Source: Mucilaginibacter pedocola
GTDB lineage: Bacteria > Bacteroidota > Bacteroidia > Sphingobacteriales > Sphingobacteriaceae
DNA length: 64,000 nt
Direction of reading: 5' to 3'
NCBI RefSeq assembly: GCF_002013915.1
Contig: NZ_MBTF01000036.1
Coordinates: 1 to 64,000, forward strand
The notes beneath the pieces are model-generated. The model was not told the origin of the DNA, made no database searches, and saw nothing but the letters and a program-made list of their open reading frames with translations. A program made the position numbers and the translations under genes. Below, piece after piece: positions 17 to 60,446 of this stretch. Every line of letters starts with the position of its first letter. Position 1 is the stretch's first letter.

Positions 17-982
17 TTAAAAGCAAATAATATTTGAATAATTTTCCTGATATGTTGAGTTAGTTTTAGCTATTGCAAAAGCTTGCTTTAGCAACTTATT
101 TACGACTGCGATCAAAGCAACTTTTTTGGCTTTTCCTTTTGCCAGCAAGCGTTCATAAAGCTCCCGGCAGGCTTTATTGCAGCGTTTTGCGCTCCATGAG
201 CATACATACAATGAGGCCCTGATCGCAGACATGCCCATTTTACATATTCTTGGCCTGCCTTTTACACTGCTGCCCGATTCGAACAGGCGCGGGCATGTCC
301 CAATGTAAGAGCTTAATTTACTGCAATCGCCGAAACGCTCGAAACCACCGCTTACCAGGATGAGCATTATCGCTGTTTTTTTGCCAATGCCAGGTATGCT
401 TTTCAGTCCTGATAGCATTTGCCCATAATGTTCAAGAACGATCTTTTCCATGTTAGCTGAAAGCCGTGATATAAGTTGTTTAAGGTGGCATAGCTCTTTT
501 TGTATCGTCTGCCTCAGTGCTTTTTGCATCATTCCTGTAGCTGTAAAGCTTTCAAGCTGGTTGCTTAACACAGTATGCTGCTTGCTCAATCCTGATAAAA
601 TGGCTTCTGTTTGCTGTAATTCTACCACATGCTGCTGTGGTGGGGCCCATTGCTCCGGCTTAGCCATGGCACCATACTCTGCGATCAGGAGTGCGTCTTT
701 CTTATCTGTTTTAGCCCGGGACATACGCATTTGGCTGTAGCGGCGAATCACCAAAGGATTTACCACACTTACCTTAATGCCCTTCGTATGCAGGAAGCAA
801 GCAAGCCTTAAATAATATGGGCCGGATGCTTCCATCACGATATGGCTATCTGTATCCAATAGCTTTAAGAAGCCGTCGAAGCCTGTAGTTTCGTTGCTGA
901 ACTGATAATGGCGTCGGCCGGCTGATACGTCAAAGGACGCTTTTGAAATGTCTACACCAATGTAATTTGCATGAGTTTCCAT
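17..982 (-). CDS. IS110-family DEDD transposase (bridge-RNA-guided recombinase)
   Basis: A 321-residue protein, a normal length for IS110 transposases. The N-terminal RuvC-like domain starts YIGVDISKASFDV, and its acidic residues fit the DEDD set: D11, E51 (in VMEASG), D93 and D96 (in KTDKKDA). The C-terminal Transposase_20 domain (about residues 195-290) has the helix-hairpin-helix-like SIPGIGKKTA and the serine-rich stretch after SSYIGTCPRLFESGSS, where the family's catalytic serine lies. Known members act with an RNA from the element's own non-coding end to join circular donor DNA to a chosen target. ATG at 982 is the only sensible start. The gene is complete, with no frameshift or internal stop. 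Confidence 0.95.
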   Translation of the reverse strand: METHANYIGVDISKASFDVSAGRRHYQFSNETTGFDGFLKLLDTDSHIVMEASGPYYLRLACFLHTKGIKVSVVNPLVIRRYSQMRMSRAKTDKKDALLIAEYGAMAKPEQWAPPQQHVVELQQTEAILSGLSKQHTVLSNQLESFTATGMMQKALRQTIQKELCHLKQLISRLSANMEKIVLEHYGQMLSGLKSIPGIGKKTAIMLILVSGGFERFGDCSKLSSYIGTCPRLFESGSSVKGRPRICKMGMSAIRASLYVCSWSAKRCNKACRELYERLLAKGKAKKVALIAVVNKLLKQAFAIAKTNSTYQENYSNIICF

Positions 983-51159: not shown

Positions 51160-52110
51160 TTATTTTGCCAGGTTAAGGTGAAGCCAGTTGATGAGTGAAT
51201 AAGGCAGAAAGCTGATAACGTACAGCAGGTAATTATCGAGCCGTAGCGGCTGCAAGGCTATGGCGCGTACTACATGGTTGCGGGCGCGTTGCGGCTGGTA
51301 ATTGTTCAGCAAAAATTTTTTGCCGCAGAGCGCATAGTAGGCCCCATGTTTGTTTTTGGCAGAATATTGCCCTTTGCCTATCCGTTGTAATTCTATACCC
51401 TCTGATGCAGATATGCGCCGTGTTTTCAGCGATTCCTGCTTAATGGCCCTGAACTTGCGGGTATGCCATTTTTCGTCGATAGTAACCGATTCGGGGTTGA
51501 GGCGTACCTTTATCAGCGGCTGCGGCAGGTTGCAGGCTTGCTCGGTCTTCAGCAGTTGCGCCCATAAAAAATGGTCCTCAAATGTGTAGGCATGTTCGTT
51601 GTAGCCGCCTGCGCCAACAATAACATCCTTTTTGTACAGTACGCAGGAGTGTATCATGGGGCAAACACTTACATCAAGCTGTTTGATATCCGCGTAGCTG
51701 TATGCCGCCAGTTGGTGGGTGAACAAAAACTCGCCCTCGTTATCAATATAATCCGCCTCCGAGCCTACAATGCTGTATTGCGGGTTGGCGGTAATAAAAT
51801 CGTATTGCAGCTGCAGGCGGTTGGGGTAGCAAACATCGTCGGCATCAAAGCGGGCAATGTAAGGCGCACGGGCATATTTTAAGCCGGTGTTTAGTGCAGC
51901 AGATACGCCCTTATTGCTTTGGTGGATAACTACTATGCGGTTATCGTCGAAGCTGCTGATAATATCCAGCGTATCGTCGGTAGAGCCATCGTTCACTATC
52001 ATCAGCTCAAAATTGGTAAAGGTTTGCGCCAGTACCGATGCTATGGCCTCGCCGATGTATTTGCCCGCGTTGTAGGCAGGCATCAGCACGGTTATTTTAG
52101 GTTCAGGCAT
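51160..52110 (-). CDS. Glycosyltransferase family 2
   Basis: A 316-residue GT-A enzyme. ITVLMPAYNAGKYIGEAIASVL, MIVNDGSTDDTLDI (nucleotide binding), ARFDADDVCYPNRLQ (DxD metal site) and the acceptor block FEDHFLWAQLL (ED motif) are all present. The last 60 residues hold a helical, weakly hydrophobic segment. It overlaps the upstream membrane polymerase gene by eight bases. Confidence 0.93.
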   Translation of the reverse strand: MPEPKITVLMPAYNAGKYIGEAIASVLAQTFTNFELMIVNDGSTDDTLDIISSFDDNRIVVIHQSNKGVSAALNTGLKYARAPYIARFDADDVCYPNRLQLQYDFITANPQYSIVGSEADYIDNEGEFLFTHQLAAYSYADIKQLDVSVCPMIHSCVLYKKDVIVGAGGYNEHAYTFEDHFLWAQLLKTEQACNLPQPLIKVRLNPESVTIDEKWHTRKFRAIKQESLKTRRISASEGIELQRIGKGQYSAKNKHGAYYALCGKKFLLNNYQPQRARNHVVRAIALQPLRLDNYLLYVISFLPYSLINWLHLNLAK

Positions 52111-53770
52111 GTGTAAGCCCTCCTTCCTGTTCAGCAGTTTCTTTAATGTTGAGGAACATCAGCAATTCAAAAAATATCATGATGGATAATTGCTCGAACC
52201 AATAATCGACGAACAGCACCGCCATTACCAGCATCAGCAGCGGCAAGCCATAGCTTAGCTTGCGGTAATGCCGGGCGAAGAACCACAGGTAGTACACCAC
52301 AAAAATGCCGACGCCCATAAGCCCGTATTCGCTGAGTAACTGCCCGTATACCGAGAACGGGCTATTAGTGAGCGAGTGCAGCCCGGTTTGTTTACTGAAG
52401 AAATCGAGGTATACATCTAAATGGTTATGCAAAAAATCGGGGTTGATGTAAGTATACTTTTGCGGATAGCCACCTGCAATGCCCAATCCCGTTGCCCGGA
52501 AGGCAAGCTTGGATGAGAAGTTCCCCATGCCATCGCCCAACAATATCTTACCGGGATGCGTAGCCATAAATTTTATGGTTTGTACCATGCTGATGGCTTT
52601 GCCCGGCAGTTTAGGTACCTTAATAGTTTTGGCAGAAATAGGCAGGGCGCTATCGTGCGTGTTGATGAATTTGATAAGTGGCTGTTGCGCAGCCTGCGGC
52701 ACTTTTATGCTTTGGTAACTTGCCGAGTGGATAGGCACTTTAGGCAAGGTAATGCGCCCTTCCTCGTTACGGATAACCGGTTTCGGCGGGGCTGCCGCAA
52801 TTACTGCCGGGTGCGCTTTTAAATAGGTGGCTGCACTCAGGCTATCTAAATACAGCTGGGCTGTTTTTTCTTTGCGCTCTTCGGGGCTAAGGGTAGAGTC
52901 GGGCCGTTGGGTGATGGGCAGATCTACCGTTTGCGCAACTGCGCCATGCATTTTATTCCCTTCGAAAATGTTCTTAACCGTTTCGGCAAGGTAGGTATTG
53001 TTTTGCGGCGATACCTTCACCATAAACACCACCAAAAACATGAGGCAGATGAGCACCAGGCTTTTTTGGTAAGGCGCACTGTTAAGGGCGAACAGCCCGG
53101 CAAGGATGAGTATTAAAGCAATGTTGATGAAGTTGCTGCCTGTGAGCAGCAGGGTAGCCATACAAACCAGAACCATAACCGGTTTTTGGCGCACCAAAAA
53201 GTATATTACCCCCATGGCATTAATGGCGGCATTGGTGGTGCTGGTATCAAAGGTGATGCCCTTGATATAGTCGCCCGTGCCGATGAAATATTTTTGGTAG
53301 TTGCCCTGGTAGGTGTAGGGGTTAAGCTCGTGCGTTTCGGCAATAATGGCCAGCAGGTTTAGCGCCGATGCGATGGCGTTGATGATAAAAAACATGAGGA
53401 TGGTGCGATGGATAACATCGGCGCTATGCTGCTCTACCGATAGTTTTACCTGGTGCACCGCCAGCAGGCAAAGCAGCCAAAAGAAAACACCCGTGGCAAC
53501 CACAATAACATAGTTGGTATTTAGGTAACCCTTGCCGATGAATAAGCCAATAAGCGATAAAGGCAAAATGAGCAGGTAAAATAGTGGCAGCCTTGAATTT
53601 TTAAAGCTGAAGCCGAATTTGAAATTGAATTGCAGCAGGTATACCAGGGCAATAGCGGGTATCTTCACTGCCAGTTTCACGTTCAAAAACAGCAGCAGCA
53701 GGGTAAGCAGTTTCCAATCGGCATACTGCTTCCATTTGTGGGTGTTGAGGGCTATAAGGCTGATGGCCAT
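52103..53770 (-). CDS. Large O-antigen polymerase-like membrane protein
   Basis: A 555-residue protein with about ten helices and an unusually long extracytoplasmic loop (about residues 265-455) rich in Pro, Lys and Thr. Within it are LLGDGMGNFSSKLAFRATGLGIAGGYPQKYTYINPDFLHNHLDVYLDFFSK, including HNH-like residues comparable to the Wzy_C region (G-D-G-M-G, F-x-H-N-H). It is probably the polysaccharide polymerase (Wzy), with the gene at 47731 a ligase or second polymerase. Family not firmly recognised. Confidence 0.75.
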   Translation of the reverse strand: MAISLIALNTHKWKQYADWKLLTLLLLFLNVKLAVKIPAIALVYLLQFNFKFGFSFKNSRLPLFYLLILPLSLIGLFIGKGYLNTNYVIVVATGVFFWLLCLLAVHQVKLSVEQHSADVIHRTILMFFIINAIASALNLLAIIAETHELNPYTYQGNYQKYFIGTGDYIKGITFDTSTTNAAINAMGVIYFLVRQKPVMVLVCMATLLLTGSNFINIALILILAGLFALNSAPYQKSLVLICLMFLVVFMVKVSPQNNTYLAETVKNIFEGNKMHGAVAQTVDLPITQRPDSTLSPEERKEKTAQLYLDSLSAATYLKAHPAVIAAAPPKPVIRNEEGRITLPKVPIHSASYQSIKVPQAAQQPLIKFINTHDSALPISAKTIKVPKLPGKAISMVQTIKFMATHPGKILLGDGMGNFSSKLAFRATGLGIAGGYPQKYTYINPDFLHNHLDVYLDFFSKQTGLHSLTNSPFSVYGQLLSEYGLMGVGIFVVYYLWFFARHYRKLSYGLPLLMLVMAVLFVDYWFEQLSIMIFFELLMFLNIKETAEQEGGLTHA

Positions 53771-56113: not shown

Positions 56114-56379
56114 ACGAAACAGATAACAGGTAAACATCTGCGGCAGCGCCGGCAGGTTATAAACTATATCGTACCAAAAGCGGCTTGGGTTGCCTCGCTT
56201 TTATAAATGCAGGGGCAATAATTGCGGGAGAGCTTTTAGTTGAATATTTAAAGCATTTAAAAACAGTGGTTTAAAAAGTTGTAAAATATTTTTTACATAA
56301 ACAGGCAACCTTTAGGCTTCGGGCTTCGTGATGTAGGTAGATTAGGTTAAATTTATAGGCATATAGTTTAATACCCCGC

Positions 56380-57024
56380 ATGGGCGACGAAGAGTTACAC
56401 CAACTGATACGAGGCTGTGTAAAGCAGGACCGGAAATGCCAGAAGATGCTGTATAAAGCATTCTACGGCTTTTCTATGGGTATTTGCCTGCGCTACGCCA
56501 ACAACCGCGAGGAAGCTGCCGAGGTAATGAACCAGGGCTTTTTAAAGGTATTTACGCATATAGATAGGTTCGATTTGGATAGGCCCTTTAAAGCATGGCT
56601 GGGGCGTATAATGATGAACGTATCTATAGATTACTATAGGGCAAACCTTAAAATGGCCTATACCGATGATCTGGATAAGGCAGAACACCTTACCGACGGC
56701 CAGTTGGTTGACCGTAACCTGAACTATGAAGACCTGCTGCGTATGGTGCAGCAATTGCCGCAGGCCTACCGTACGGTGTTTAACCTTTTTGCGGTTGATG
56801 GATACTCGCACGAGGAGATAGCCGAGATGCTGAACATTAGCACGGGCACCTCTAAATCGAACCTGCACAAGGCAAGGCAAAAACTTAAATTAATGGTATT
56901 AAAAGCAGAAGAAGCCGCCAACAACAACAGTAACTACAACCGGGGGATGGGTTATAACCCCATTGTGGCCATGGTAGGCAACGACATTAGGAATGCTTTT
57001 TATAATAATGGTATCAGGAGATGA
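56380..57024 (+). CDS. ECF-type RNA polymerase sigma factor
   Basis: A 214-residue sigma-70-family factor. Region 2 lies at about 10-80 (ICLRYANNREEAAEVMNQGFLKVF, with FKAWLGRIMMNVSIDYYR). Region 4 lies at about 110-170 (MVQQLPQAYRTVFNLFAVDGYSHEEIAEMLNIS, TSKSNLHKARQKL). A 40-residue Asn-rich tail follows. It overlaps the following gene by four bases, which is typical of sigma/anti-sigma pairs. It probably drives the four envelope genes downstream. Confidence 0.93.
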   Translation: MGDEELHQLIRGCVKQDRKCQKMLYKAFYGFSMGICLRYANNREEAAEVMNQGFLKVFTHIDRFDLDRPFKAWLGRIMMNVSIDYYRANLKMAYTDDLDKAEHLTDGQLVDRNLNYEDLLRMVQQLPQAYRTVFNLFAVDGYSHEEIAEMLNISTGTSKSNLHKARQKLKLMVLKAEEAANNNSNYNRGMGYNPIVAMVGNDIRNAFYNNGIRR

Positions 57025-58361
57025 AAGAGGGGGAGGAAGTAGATAAATTATTTAAAAAGCGCCTGGAGGAGCCCGGGAACAACCTCGCCTACAACGAGGA
57101 TGACTGGGACGCCCTTGAGCAAATGATGGATGCCGGTAAAAAACGCCCCCTTATAGTTTACTGGCTACCCATAGTGAGTGGCATTGCGGCAATGTTGCTG
57201 CTGGTTTTGGGCTGGTACCTGTTTAAAGGGCAAACTACCGAAGTGAAACCGGGCGATACTATTGTGAAAGCACCTACAGAGAAAAAGATAAACAACGATA
57301 CCGCTAGGACTGATGGCATTAAAGCTATTACAGGCGACTCGTTGAACAATGTTGCGGATAACAAAGCGGGGGTTGAGAATTTACAGTTGGACAGCACGCC
57401 ACTGCATACCCCGGCGGTTGCCGCAGGCAGGCTGCCGGGGCAGAACAATACCGGCACTGCCAAATTAAAGCCGGGTAATGGTATCGATATCCCGCATTTC
57501 AATAACAATGTTGCAGCGACTTCTAATATCAATAACGTAGCATCGGCAAATAACAGCAGTAATGTTAATGTTGTTAAAAAAGATACCACGCCGCCTGCTG
57601 CCAATAATGTAGCGGTTGTAAAGGTAGATACCGTTCCGCCGGGCAAAGCTAATATGGTGGCACAGCGCGATACTACGCCACCTGCTAAGCTAAATACCGA
57701 GGGGCAAAACGCAGCACAGGTTGTTGCTTCGGTAAAACCTAAGGTGAAAACCTTTGGGCCAAACCGGCCGCAATTCGCGCTTAGTGTTATTGCTTCGGGC
57801 GATGTTACGGGCGTTAACTCGTTAAGCCAGGGTAAAACAGGCAGCAACTTTGGGGCTATGTTCACGGTAAGCGTAAATAAATGGAGTTTTACAACAGGTG
57901 CCATGTATGCTATAAAACCATACGCAACATCTTTTGCCAATTACACAACAGCATATCAGTTTAAAACCGATCCCACCGAGGTGACTGCCGATTGCCGCAT
58001 GCTGGATATACCGCTTAACGTTGGGTACCGGGTATACCAAAAAGGCAAAAACAAATTCGCGCTGGGTACGGGGCTAACCTCCTACTTTATGCTGCACGAG
58101 AATTATAAATATACATACAGCTCTGCGTACGCAAACGGGCCAACCAGTTACCAGGTGCCCAACCCTAAAAACTATTTATTAAGTACAGTTAATTTAAATG
58201 CCACTTTCGAGCATCAGGTAAATTCAAAATTCAGTTTGAGTGTGCAACCCTACATGAAACTGCCAATATCGGCAGTGGGGTACAGCAACGTAAACCTGCA
58301 TACCGCAGGGGTTGCCGTGGGCTTCAACTGGAATATCAATTCATTCACCAAACCAAAGTAA
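57021..58361 (+). CDS. Inner-membrane segment plus outer-membrane barrel protein, candidate anti-sigma
   Basis: A 446-residue protein with three parts. Residues 1-42 are cytosolic and charged (DKLFKKRLEEPGNNLAYNEDDWDALEQMM), as in short anti-sigma domains. Residues 43-68 are one helix. Residues 70-240 form a Pro/Thr/Asn-rich linker with three DTxPP units at 188, 203 and 217. Residues 248-446 look like an outer-membrane beta-barrel (FALSVIASGDVTGVN..., LDIPLNVGYRVYQKGKNKFALGTG, LNATFEHQVNSKFSLSVQPYMKLPIS). Its position after an ECF factor suggests a signalling link across the envelope. Overlaps the sigma gene (57021-57024). Confidence 0.8.
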   Translation: MKEGEEVDKLFKKRLEEPGNNLAYNEDDWDALEQMMDAGKKRPLIVYWLPIVSGIAAMLLLVLGWYLFKGQTTEVKPGDTIVKAPTEKKINNDTARTDGIKAITGDSLNNVADNKAGVENLQLDSTPLHTPAVAAGRLPGQNNTGTAKLKPGNGIDIPHFNNNVAATSNINNVASANNSSNVNVVKKDTTPPAANNVAVVKVDTVPPGKANMVAQRDTTPPAKLNTEGQNAAQVVASVKPKVKTFGPNRPQFALSVIASGDVTGVNSLSQGKTGSNFGAMFTVSVNKWSFTTGAMYAIKPYATSFANYTTAYQFKTDPTEVTADCRMLDIPLNVGYRVYQKGKNKFALGTGLTSYFMLHENYKYTYSSAYANGPTSYQVPNPKNYLLSTVNLNATFEHQVNSKFSLSVQPYMKLPISAVGYSNVNLHTAGVAVGFNWNINSFTKPK

Positions 58362-58362
58362 C

Positions 58363-58914
58363 ATGAAGTACATCTGCCTTATTTTACTTGCCTGGTTAAG
58401 CATCAAAAACCAGGCGAGCCAGGACCTCTATGCCTGTAAAAACGTAAAAGTAAGTTTGTTTTCGAGTGCCCCGCTGGAAGATATCACAGCATCTACCAGC
58501 ACCGGAACCTCGGTTTACAACCCTGCCACCGGCGATCTGGCCTTTAGCGTAAACATCCGCTCGTTCCAGTTCCCCAAATCGTTAATGCAGGAGCATTTTA
58601 ACGAGAACTACATGGAAAGCGACAAATACCCTAAAGCCACTTTCAAAGGGAAGATTAAAGAAACCATCGATGTAACTAAAAACGGCACTTACCCGGTAAC
58701 CGCCACCGGCGACCTGCAGGTGCACGGCGTTACCCAAACCCGCACCATTACCGGCACTGCCGTGGTAAACAATGGCACGGTGAGCCTGTCATCAGAGTTT
58801 ATGGTAAAATGCGCCGACCATAAAATAGAGATACCCACGCTGGTATTTAAAAAGATAGCCGAAAGCATCAAGATGAATGTATCGGGCACTTACACAGTGG
58901 CCAAGAGCAGCTAA
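58363..58914 (+). CDS. YceI-family lipocalin-like protein
   Basis: A 183-residue exported protein; I chose ATG 58363 (MKYICLILLAWL, a signal peptide), as the longer frame overlaps the upstream gene. The YceI fold is seen in DLAFSVNIRSFQFPKSLMQEHFNENYMESDKYPKATFKG, in which the family's -M-x-x-HFxxxxY-MES-KYP motif is intact. YceI proteins bind isoprenoids such as polyprenyl quinones. It follows the barrel gene by one base. Confidence 0.92.
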   Translation: MKYICLILLAWLSIKNQASQDLYACKNVKVSLFSSAPLEDITASTSTGTSVYNPATGDLAFSVNIRSFQFPKSLMQEHFNENYMESDKYPKATFKGKIKETIDVTKNGTYPVTATGDLQVHGVTQTRTITGTAVVNNGTVSLSSEFMVKCADHKIEIPTLVFKKIAESIKMNVSGTYTVAKSS

Positions 58915-58939
58915 AAACCCTACACAAAAACTATACTCC

Positions 58940-59893
58940 ATGAAAAAGCTAATTTTAATTGCGGCCTGCGCTGCGATAAGTACCGGGCTATGCGCGCAAA
59001 CCAAGCCCGCCGAGAGCAAATCGGCCGCCGATTCCCTGTTGAACAGTATGGATGCCGGTAACACCAAGGCCGAGCCGGTAATTGCCACCTTCAAATCTAC
59101 AAGGCTTATTTTAGGTGCCACTACCGAAACCGTTAAAAAGAACAACCTTAACTTTTTGGTGATACACCGTTTTGGCGATATAGGCGGCTCGGAAGGCGGG
59201 GGTAAAACGCTTTTCGGGCTGGATAATTCGAGCGATATCTACATCGGGTTCGAATACGGCCTAAGCGATAACCTCGATATCGACTTTGGCCGCAGCAAGT
59301 ACAACCAACAGGTAGACCTGGGGCTGAAATACGCCATGTTGCACCAAACATCAGACGATGCCACACCCTTTGCCATTACGCTTTTGGGCAAAACAGGCGT
59401 AAAGGCCTACACCGCCAACCAGGGCGAATTCCCAACTTTTGCCGATAGGCTGGATTATGTAGCGCAGGCCATTATCGCCCGCAAGTTCTCGAGCAACTTC
59501 TCGCTGCAATTAACGCCAACTTTTGTGAGGCATAACTCGCCTTTCCCGTTTTTGGCGGGTAACAACCGTGGCTTTTTTGCATTGGGCGCAGCGGGCCGCC
59601 TAAAGGTTACCAAGCGCATGGGTATCGTGGTTGATTATGCGCATCCCTTCTCCTCCTTCCGCGACAAAGCAACAGGCGATAATGCCTTTTACGACCCGCT
59701 GGGTATAGGTATAGAAATAGAGACCGGTGGCCACGTGTTCACTATTGTGTTCAGCAATACCAAAGCCATTAGCGAGGCCAGCTACCTGGCGGGCAGCCAA
59801 AGCGATTGGGGTAAAGGGCAATTCAGGCTGGGCTTTACCATCTCGAGGATGTTCAGTTTCAACAAAAAAGCAAAAGAAGGTAAAACATACTAA
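58940..59893 (+). CDS. DUF5777 beta-barrel protein
   Basis: A 317-residue protein with a signal peptide (KKLILIAACAAISTGLCAQ). DUF5777 is a Bacteroidota outer-membrane barrel family of unknown function. The blocks NNLNFLVIHRFGDIGGSEGGGKTLFGLDNSSDIYIGFEYG and NLDIDFGRSKYNQQVDLGLKY are its hallmark, and RLGFTISRMFSFN is the last strand. I chose ATG 58940 over an upstream frame. It follows YceI by 25 bases. Confidence 0.9.
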   Translation: MKKLILIAACAAISTGLCAQTKPAESKSAADSLLNSMDAGNTKAEPVIATFKSTRLILGATTETVKKNNLNFLVIHRFGDIGGSEGGGKTLFGLDNSSDIYIGFEYGLSDNLDIDFGRSKYNQQVDLGLKYAMLHQTSDDATPFAITLLGKTGVKAYTANQGEFPTFADRLDYVAQAIIARKFSSNFSLQLTPTFVRHNSPFPFLAGNNRGFFALGAAGRLKVTKRMGIVVDYAHPFSSFRDKATGDNAFYDPLGIGIEIETGGHVFTIVFSNTKAISEASYLAGSQSDWGKGQFRLGFTISRMFSFNKKAKEGKTY

Positions 59894-59905
59894 ATACAAC
59901 ATACC

Positions 59906-60331
59906 ATGGAAAGACAAGAATTTTTAGCAAAGCTGGGTATTACCCTGGCGGCTGTTTGCACCGGATGCAGTTTAGTATCATGCGGCAGCAATCCCAAAAA
60001 CGAAGACCCTACGCCAACAACCGATGGCAATATATTTACCACCAACCTGGATAGCGAACTACTTAACGTGGGCGATGCCAAAGTATCCAACGGCGTAATT
60101 TTAGCACGCACCGCGCCCGGCAACACTGCCGATGCATTTTCGGCCGTACAGGTGGCTTGTACGCATGAAGGAGCGTTTATTAACTATAATAATACTGCAG
60201 GGTTATACATATGCCCGCTGCATGGCAGCCGTTTTAGTACTACCGGTAGCGTAGTTCAGGGCCCCGCTGTTAATGCGCTGAAGAAATACAATGTGGTGAT
60301 TACCGGTACAAGTTTGGCGGTAAGGGCGTAG
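59906..60331 (+). CDS. Rieske 2Fe-2S lipoprotein
   Basis: A 141-residue exported iron-sulfur protein. Lipobox LVSC (Cys26) after a hydrophobic segment. Cluster ligands C85 and H87 (VACTHEGA), then C103 and H106 (CPLHGSRF): two Cys and two His of a Rieske domain. The second Cys of the usual disulphide pair (CTHxGC) is Ala90 here, and the paired Cys at CPxHGS is absent too, so it lacks the disulphide typical of bc1-type Rieske proteins. It is a likely electron carrier at the periplasmic or outer membrane. Confidence 0.92.
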   Translation: MERQEFLAKLGITLAAVCTGCSLVSCGSNPKNEDPTPTTDGNIFTTNLDSELLNVGDAKVSNGVILARTAPGNTADAFSAVQVACTHEGAFINYNNTAGLYICPLHGSRFSTTGSVVQGPAVNALKKYNVVITGTSLAVRA

Positions 60332-60381: not shown

Positions 60382-60412
60382 AAGCGCAAAAAATAAATGT
60401 TTAATTAGGGGG

Positions 60413-60446
60413 CGGTCCATTTCTGAAAAGAATGGGCCGTTTTTTA
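60413..60446. terminator. Terminator between convergent genes
   Basis: CGGTCCATT (60413-60421) pairs with AATGGGCCG (60431-60439) with one G-T pair, a 9-base loop, and T6 at 60440-60445. It ends the Rieske transcript and may also serve the opposite strand. Confidence 0.7.

Follow-up and report, generated by a model that had tools for sequence, protein, structure and literature searches.

A conserved YceI-DUF5777 gene pair with exchangeable one-electron carriers points to a redox activity at the outer membrane of Bacteroidota

Introduction

Most crystal structures of YceI-family lipocalins contain isoprenoids or ubiquinone-8 (PMC9113575; this and the other papers are cited here from excerpts). 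In Burkholderia, the BcnA/LcoA system combines a YceI lipocalin with a cytochrome b561, and quenching of lipid peroxyl radicals has been proposed for it (PMC9113575). The Cellvibrio proteins Cbp2D and Cbp2E both carry a YceI-like domain, joined in Cbp2D by two c-type cytochrome domains (PMC8981238). On the regulatory side, the Dma/Das systems of Bacteroides are pairs of a dual-membrane-spanning anti-sigma factor and an extracytoplasmic function (ECF) sigma factor of group ECF21, and loss of Dma2 in B. thetaiotaomicron most strongly induced its own operon and the neighbors, as well as polysaccharide loci (PMC13088901). A similar sigma/anti-sigma pair is found in Phocaeicola, and EcfO of B. fragilis is cited for oxidative stress (PMC9308784). 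Here we analyze a run of five genes at positions 56380-60331 of a 64,000-nucleotide stretch of DNA (the window) from a Mucilaginibacter-like genome of 7.0 Mb. The run encodes an ECF sigma factor, an anti-sigma-like protein with a predicted barrel, a YceI protein, a DUF5777 barrel and a Rieske protein. It contains a YceI-DUF5777 core that recurs in many Bacteroidota beside a one-electron carrier of changing type.

DUF5777 is named in no paper of the open-licence literature searched (subscription papers and outside preprints fall beyond that scope). Within the same literature, combining DUF5777, YceI and Rieske gave nothing related by title, YceI with cupredoxin gave nothing, and YceI with Bacteroidota and anti-sigma gave no paper with both YceI and Bacteroidota among the matches listed, while YceI with Bacteroidetes, cytochrome c and outer membrane gave only an iron-limitation transcriptome. 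As leads, the Riemerella and Elizabethkingia iron/Fur and the Flavobacterium transcriptomes were uninformative (PMC5429918, PMC5609570, PMC7221216, PMC9723704); a YceI-like gene of Riemerella is up by 1.16 log2 under iron limitation and is not tied to a DUF5777 locus in the excerpt cited (PMC5429918).

The YceI-DUF5777 core and its carrier

Sampling covered 151 genomes of the window's family, of which 94 had a match to DUF5777 (93 above cut-off), and 296 genomes of the phylum, of which 115 had one; 14 control genomes had none. The surroundings of these genes were analyzed by calling open reading frames, by searching with profiles built from the window's five proteins and from neighbors that recur, and by six-frame scans. 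Dropping three near-identical loci reduced the 144 DUF5777 instances to 141, and dropping another seven with short flanks left 134 full-flank loci (individual loci are given L numbers below). A YceI-type gene was found within 2.5 kb of DUF5777 in 118 of these 134, and directly adjacent to it in all 20 loci of a second sample that had not been used in profile building. By this conserved linkage, the core pairs a DUF5777 barrel with a YceI lipocalin of the periplasm.

Next to the core, the full-flank loci held a small haem-c cytochrome in 81 cases, a Rieske protein in 42, both in two and neither in nine. A cytochrome or a Rieske protein, i.e. a one-electron carrier, thus adjoins DUF5777 in 125 of the 134 loci, with a cupredoxin in some others, which supports the redox meaning that an initial annotation, made from the letters of the window, had given to the locus. 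The cytochrome matches of L045 and L057 fall at the start of a pyrroloquinoline quinone (PQQ) dehydrogenase gene (over 29 residues in L057) and were read as spurious; without them the counts become 80 cytochrome, 43 Rieske, one both (L122) and ten neither. In L172, one of the nine loci with neither, a gene of the plastocyanin family lies immediately 5' of YceI, at the place where the cytochrome stands in other loci. The second sample contained 12 loci with a cytochrome, two with a Rieske protein (L244, L260), two with a cupredoxin (L251, L255), one with cytochrome and cupredoxin (L253) and three with no carrier, namely L242 as well as L243 and L245, whose contigs end at the slot. This sample is uneven for the phylum, as 17 of its 20 loci come from the family of the L172 genome (f23) and three from other families. 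Three of the 17 are from the genus of that genome (G356) and were chosen because L172 has a cupredoxin; none of these three has one, and the three cupredoxin loci are all among the other 14.

The slot cytochromes form a cluster with a median length of 130 residues (115-366). Out of 100 cytochrome-profile matches near DUF5777, 98 had a C-x(2-5)-CH haem motif and 85 a lipobox-like site, with one haem-type motif in 87, two or three pattern matches in 11 and none in two. The Pfam family PSCyt1 matched one slot cytochrome below cut-off and another above it. The occupant of the slot is an exported, small one-electron carrier, mostly with a lipobox-like site, in which haem c, a Rieske 2Fe-2S cluster and blue copper are exchanged for one another.

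These counts also bear on the simplest alternative, that the locus is a loose neighborhood, i.e. an envelope-stress regulon in which unrelated parts have come together by chance. Such a reading would account for the sigma pair often standing apart from the core and for the loci that have no carrier. It is hard to reconcile with YceI standing by DUF5777 in so large a share of both samples, over many genera, and with three unrelated electron carriers occupying the same surroundings, and we regard it as very improbable.

The five-gene arrangement of the window recurs in identical order and orientation in 37 of the 144 DUF5777 loci examined (34 + 2 + 1), and for this reason the order is not due to chance. 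The expectation of a conserved order in relatives was therefore partly borne out; what is conserved, however, is the YceI-DUF5777 pair and not the five-gene set, which we rejected as the conserved unit in favor of YceI-DUF5777 plus a carrier. The Rieske protein, taken at first as a fixed member of the locus, turned out to be one of several exchangeable carriers.

Exchange of carriers on the trees

Modules with a Rieske protein occur in three gene orders: YceI-DUF5777-Rieske in the window and its family, Rieske-DUF5777-YceI in L082, L106, L111, L123 and L162 (and in L122, which also has a cytochrome), and Rieske-YceI-DUF5777 in L146 and L150, and in L244 and L260 of the second sample. On a DUF5777 tree made by a quick method, with 42 of 138 inner branches weak, the minimum number of changes between Rieske and cytochrome was four when the doubtful L057 row was kept as cytochrome and L045 as Rieske. 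It was three in a 50-row DUF5777 subset without L057 and with L122 taken as Rieske. Joining the first and second orders in a single clade against the cytochrome modules was rejected by the approximately unbiased (AU) test (p-AU 0.000175), as was joining the first and third (p-AU 0.000391); this test presumes groups named in advance, and the gene orders were known before the tree. A single origin of the Rieske-bearing modules is thereby rejected on the DUF5777 tree.

The module Rieske proteins themselves form one supported set relative to the sampled outside Rieske proteins, with the non-module proteins of L184, L195 and L196 nested within it. This tree is weak, because it rests on 118 columns and on 35 outside rows that were mostly the best-scoring among the matches listed. 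Since the three orders lie in DUF5777 lineages that do not group together, and their Rieske proteins belong to one set, a single Rieske family seems to have entered the slot repeatedly, with the direction of change probably as this wording implies.

The five genes of the window

The five genes are of the kinds named in the initial annotation, co-directional and tightly spaced (gaps of -4 to 25 bp). The ECF sigma factor (56380-57024, plus strand as are all features below unless stated, 214 amino acids) matches Pfam Sigma70_r2 and Sigma70_r4_2 and NCBIfam TIGR02937 (92.7 bits). Its gene overlaps by 4 bp (ATGA) that of the 446-residue anti-sigma-like protein (57021-58361), which is predicted to span both membranes from its hydropathy, its composition and the OMP_b-brl_2 matches of its relatives. 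After a gap of 1 bp comes the YceI gene (58363-58914), for 183 residues with a signal-peptide-like N-terminus (Pfam YceI, 55.3 bits, 1.3e-14). A gap of 25 bp separates it from the DUF5777 gene (58940-59893), for a 317-residue beta-barrel presumed to lie in the outer membrane (Pfam DUF5777, 282.4 bits, 3.4e-84), and another of 12 bp leads to the Rieske gene (59906-60331), for a [2Fe-2S] protein of 141 residues with a lipobox-like LVSC (Pfam Rieske, 39.3 bits, 6.1e-10). An ECF-type promoter-like motif, GGCAACC-N16-CGTGAT, is found at 56304-56332, 47 nucleotides 5' of the sigma start codon. At 60406-60446, 3' of the Rieske gene, a consensus scan found a terminator-like hairpin with a 17-pair stem followed by a T-run; as the scan gave 13 such sites in the window against 6.4 expected from shuffles, the hairpin alone is weak evidence. 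The run is flanked on the left by a divergent glycosyltransferase gene and on the right by a convergent zinc-type oxidoreductase gene (both by Pfam). The nearest named relatives of the DUF5777 protein are those of M. pankratovii, M. psychrotolerans and M. gilvus (85-87% identity).

An AlphaFold2 model of the YceI protein (predicted local distance difference test, pLDDT, 83.0) shows eight strands, even though the first 28 positions of the profile are not covered by the Pfam match. All nine best structural matches are YceI structures (Z 17.3-19.5), two of them polyisoprenoid-binding domains, and together with the Pfam match above cut-off these place the protein in the eight-stranded lipocalin fold of the family. 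The lipid or quinone carriage named in the initial annotation is a putative property, carried over from YceI relatives.

The Rieske protein has the ligand loops CTHEGA and CPLHGS, and its sequence matches in the PDB are b6f-type Rieske proteins. A role in a bc1 or b6f complex was rejected, because the disulfide cysteines of the bc1/b6f proteins are absent and no cytochrome b gene was found among the five genes and the five flanking genes scanned. The ligand pattern fits 45 of 48 aligned module Rieske proteins, the second loop being altered in L082, L106 and L111, and disulfide-forming cysteines are present in L146 and L150.

The DUF5777 model has 12 strands and low confidence (pLDDT 60.7), and its best matches are outer-membrane barrels: KdgM (Z 17.5, root-mean-square deviation 2.2 over 167 residues), FapF, a COG4313 channel and NanC. 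The resemblance to the channels KdgM, NanC and COG4313 would fit a catabolic or uptake system, in which DUF5777 would import a hydrophobic compound, YceI would carry it and the carrier would take up electrons from its oxidation. In keeping with this, a PQQ dehydrogenase-type gene lies 3' of the module in L038, L045, L046 and L057 (by scanning in L045, by clustering in the others). Yet the core has no widely recurring enzyme cluster beside it, the largest cluster of non-carrier neighbors having 16 members and consisting of an OB-fold-like (tRNA_anti-like) protein, and the channel resemblance itself derives from a low-confidence model. We consider an uptake system improbable. The PQQ dehydrogenase-type protein of L045 also has a cytochrome c domain.

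Neighbors of the core and surface electron export

The main rival to the reading favored below is electron export at the surface, where the carrier would pass electrons through the DUF5777 barrel, or alongside it, to a surface redox protein or a soluble shuttle, like a minimal porin-cytochrome conduit. In porin-cytochrome conduits of the MtrCAB type, a multihaem cytochrome lies inside a large barrel. In a minority of modules, neighboring proteins do carry a type IX secretion tail, and some of these proteins also show DOMON-like, cupredoxin or CxxCH features. The tail is found with DOMON-like neighbors in L130, L159, L163 and L164 (DOMON below cut-off), without DOMON in the module neighbors of L166 and L131, and on a cupredoxin in L124. 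A cluster of proteins of 541-548 amino acids in L147, L149 and L151 belongs here too, with the tail confirmed in L149 and L151 and CxxCH shown for L149. A paralogous DUF5777 group, which adjoins a YceI-type or ethylbenzene-dehydrogenase-type gene together with cytochrome c, Fer4 and NrfD genes, also favors export by its NrfD and Fer4 neighbors. Against these observations, such partners occur in a minority of loci and are absent from the window, and the core has no recurrent multihaem neighbor. A barrel with about 12 strands also leaves too little room for an enclosed cytochrome like that of MtrB. Surface export seems to us a rather doubtful explanation.

Several further arrangements were noted beside these subjects. 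Paralogues of DUF5777 lie near Fer4/NrfD genes in apparent respiratory operons in L056, L060, L061, L090, L109, L116, L125 and L145. Several of the modules or sigma pairs have a Lipoprotein_15 gene next to them, and in L253 (6093-11414) genes for Lipoprotein_15, sigma, anti-sigma, cupredoxin, cytochrome c, YceI and DUF5777 stand all together. The window's own genome has a second Rieske gene of the same family in L234 (contig 38, 1-16000; 4663-8739), with thioredoxin-like, ApbE and DUF3570 genes and an adjoining divergent cytochrome b561 gene. A third Rieske gene, in L239 (contig 36, 190500-203000; 4968-7816), lies between a di-haem oxidoreductase (DHOR) gene and a gene with a weak match to the BBP2 porin family, and is possibly another pairing of a Rieske protein with an outer-membrane barrel.

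The sigma/anti-sigma pair and its promoter motif

The anti-sigma-like protein has a short N-terminus, a single transmembrane helix at about residues 44-67 (top hydropathy window 44-62), a low-complexity tether (residues 69-245, 76% disorder-promoting letters) and a putative C-terminal barrel. Its OMP_b-brl_2 match of 18.3 bits is under the 27-bit cut-off, while 13 of 21 aligned relatives match at E<=0.01 (best 1.5e-9); LF and DW motifs are conserved in the N-terminus of the relatives, and a PDB search with the anti-sigma profile gave no matches. The N-terminus is called anti-sigma-like from the architecture and not from a family match. As in the Dma family, an ECF sigma gene is adjacent, and the single transmembrane helix is followed by a long disordered tether. 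The call of an anti-sigma/barrel protein in L117, which does not have this pattern of helix, tether and barrel, is doubtful.

Strong relatives of the anti-sigma protein were found in 74 of the 151 family genomes and DUF5777 in 93, with both in 69 and the anti-sigma alone in five. Modules with a cytochrome, a Rieske protein or a cupredoxin can all have the pair beside them. The pair also stands elsewhere in the genomes, and we rejected it as specific to the module: 20 sigma-pair loci selected for lying away from DUF5777 had other neighbors, five of them a divergent Lipoprotein_15 gene adjoining sigma. The pair is of a known kind and loosely tied to the module.

The exact motif of the window was found in 26 of 45 regions upstream of sigma in module loci, a set that includes close relatives, and the gapped words GCAAC..GTGAT were common to 27 of the 45, versus at most four in ten mononucleotide shuffles. 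Within the window it has one match, versus none in 100 dinucleotide shuffles. Of the 39 module operons that begin with sigma, 37 had a loose form of the motif; it was also present in 14 of the 99 other module operons and in 18 of 806 operons taken as background. The reversed control motif was seen in 0, 1 and 3 operons of these three groups, respectively. The difference between other module operons and background gave p 1.3e-6, which is too small a value because the loci in the test are related. The 14 motif-bearing operons include cytochrome-, YceI-, Rieske- and Lipoprotein_15-first ones. In a 26-locus clade, picked after the tree was known, the loose motif was found in 12 of 26 cases versus 0 of 154. 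A similar GCAACC...CGT promoter-like motif lies 5' of another window gene upstream of the locus (52106-53770, minus strand). From linkage and the shared promoter motif, both read from sequence, the sigma factor is likely to control the module.

Proposed role of the module

In our reading the locus is, on balance, probably one version of a Bacteroidota envelope redox module composed of the YceI-DUF5777 core, an exchangeable carrier and sigma control, and a redox role as such is very probable. With a linked lipocalin, an outer-membrane barrel and an exchangeable one-electron carrier, the best explanation is single-electron chemistry at the outer membrane. The cytochrome c, Fer4 and NrfD genes beside the paralogous DUF5777 group speak for such a role as well. 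The anti-sigma barrel would sense a condition of the outer membrane and free the sigma factor, while the carrier, anchored at the outer membrane, would pass single electrons to or from an isoprenoid quinone bound in YceI. The DUF5777 barrel might serve this quinone, or a small redox partner, as the site of docking or of exit. Exchange between carrier and quinone on YceI is proposed because quenching of lipid peroxyl radicals has been suggested for the BcnA/LcoA YceI lipocalin with ubiquinone (PMC9113575). By this analogy YceI may hold a quinone as the redox partner of the carrier, a suggestion that we make tentatively. As to purpose, we lean slightly towards repair of oxidized membrane lipids over disposal of electrons at the cell surface. 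A more far-reaching version, which we hold to be unlikely, is a phylum-wide, sigma-switched redox system of a new type, in which lipocalin and outer-membrane port shuttle menaquinone, as a lipophilic electron carrier, from the periplasm to the outer leaflet or surface and back, with recharging by whichever one-electron carrier the lineage has; the anti-sigma protein, spanning both membranes, would then read the state of the outer membrane and the sigma factor would switch the system on.

A number of observations weigh against the redox module. The window YceI protein has 11-18% identity to the solved members, and the DUF5777 model, as noted, is of low confidence and its barrel too narrow for an enclosed cytochrome. 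No recognizable carrier was seen in the full flanks of L040, L049, L059, L062, L067 and L143, nor in L043 and L052, both with a cut flank, or in L242, and L076 and L084 have neither a recognizable carrier nor YceI. The five genes had at first been placed under one sigma factor; an ECF-like motif does lie 5' of the run, but the sigma pair adjoins 47 of the 134 full-flank modules and is absent beside most. Moreover, L195 and L196, whose genomes gave no match to DUF5777, have sigma, anti-sigma and Rieske genes in a row. Over the whole own genome the strict motif has two matches versus two for the reversed control, and it was rejected as a genome-wide regulon predictor, being no better than that control. 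In several relatives (L036, L037, L042, L052, L053) the motif is also found 5' of the divergent glycosyltransferase gene, so it may serve a wider envelope regulon or several sigma factors.

The replacement of one carrier by an unrelated one beside a constant core makes it likely that the DUF5777 family serves in single-electron transfer at the envelope; this meaning is visible in no single genome and is directly testable. YceI lipocalins, known mainly as isoprenoid binders, would gain new redox partners, and a Dma-like sigma switch would become tied to envelope redox chemistry.

Comparison with known systems

With porin-cytochrome conduits such as MtrCAB, the module has in common an outer-membrane barrel and an electron carrier, but its carriers have a single centre and its barrel is modeled with 12 strands; the multihaem cytochrome of those conduits is missing, Pfam finding no cytochrome at all in the window operon. 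LcoA-BcnA is alike in that a YceI lipocalin is genetically tied to an electron-transfer protein in the envelope, with a quinone as the proposed redox ligand; the partner there is a membrane cytochrome b561, whereas here it is an exchangeable small exported carrier together with an outer-membrane barrel (PMC9113575). Cytochrome b561 (PF01292) was not found among the window's five genes and the five flanking genes scanned. Of Cbp2D and Cbp2E, the former likewise joins a YceI-like domain to c-type cytochromes, but as a multi-domain protein with a carbohydrate-binding module, and neither a barrel nor carrier exchange is described in the excerpt cited (PMC8981238). The sigma pair resembles Dma/Das in layout, i.e. 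a sigma gene followed by a protein with a short N-terminus, a transmembrane helix, a disordered tether and, here as a prediction, a C-terminal barrel; by that layout it is of an already described kind. The Dma/Das regulons in the excerpt cited differ, comprising vesicles, polysaccharide loci and lipopolysaccharide and not a module of YceI, DUF5777 and carrier (PMC13088901). Set beside these systems, the locus points to a redox activity at the outer membrane that has not been described.

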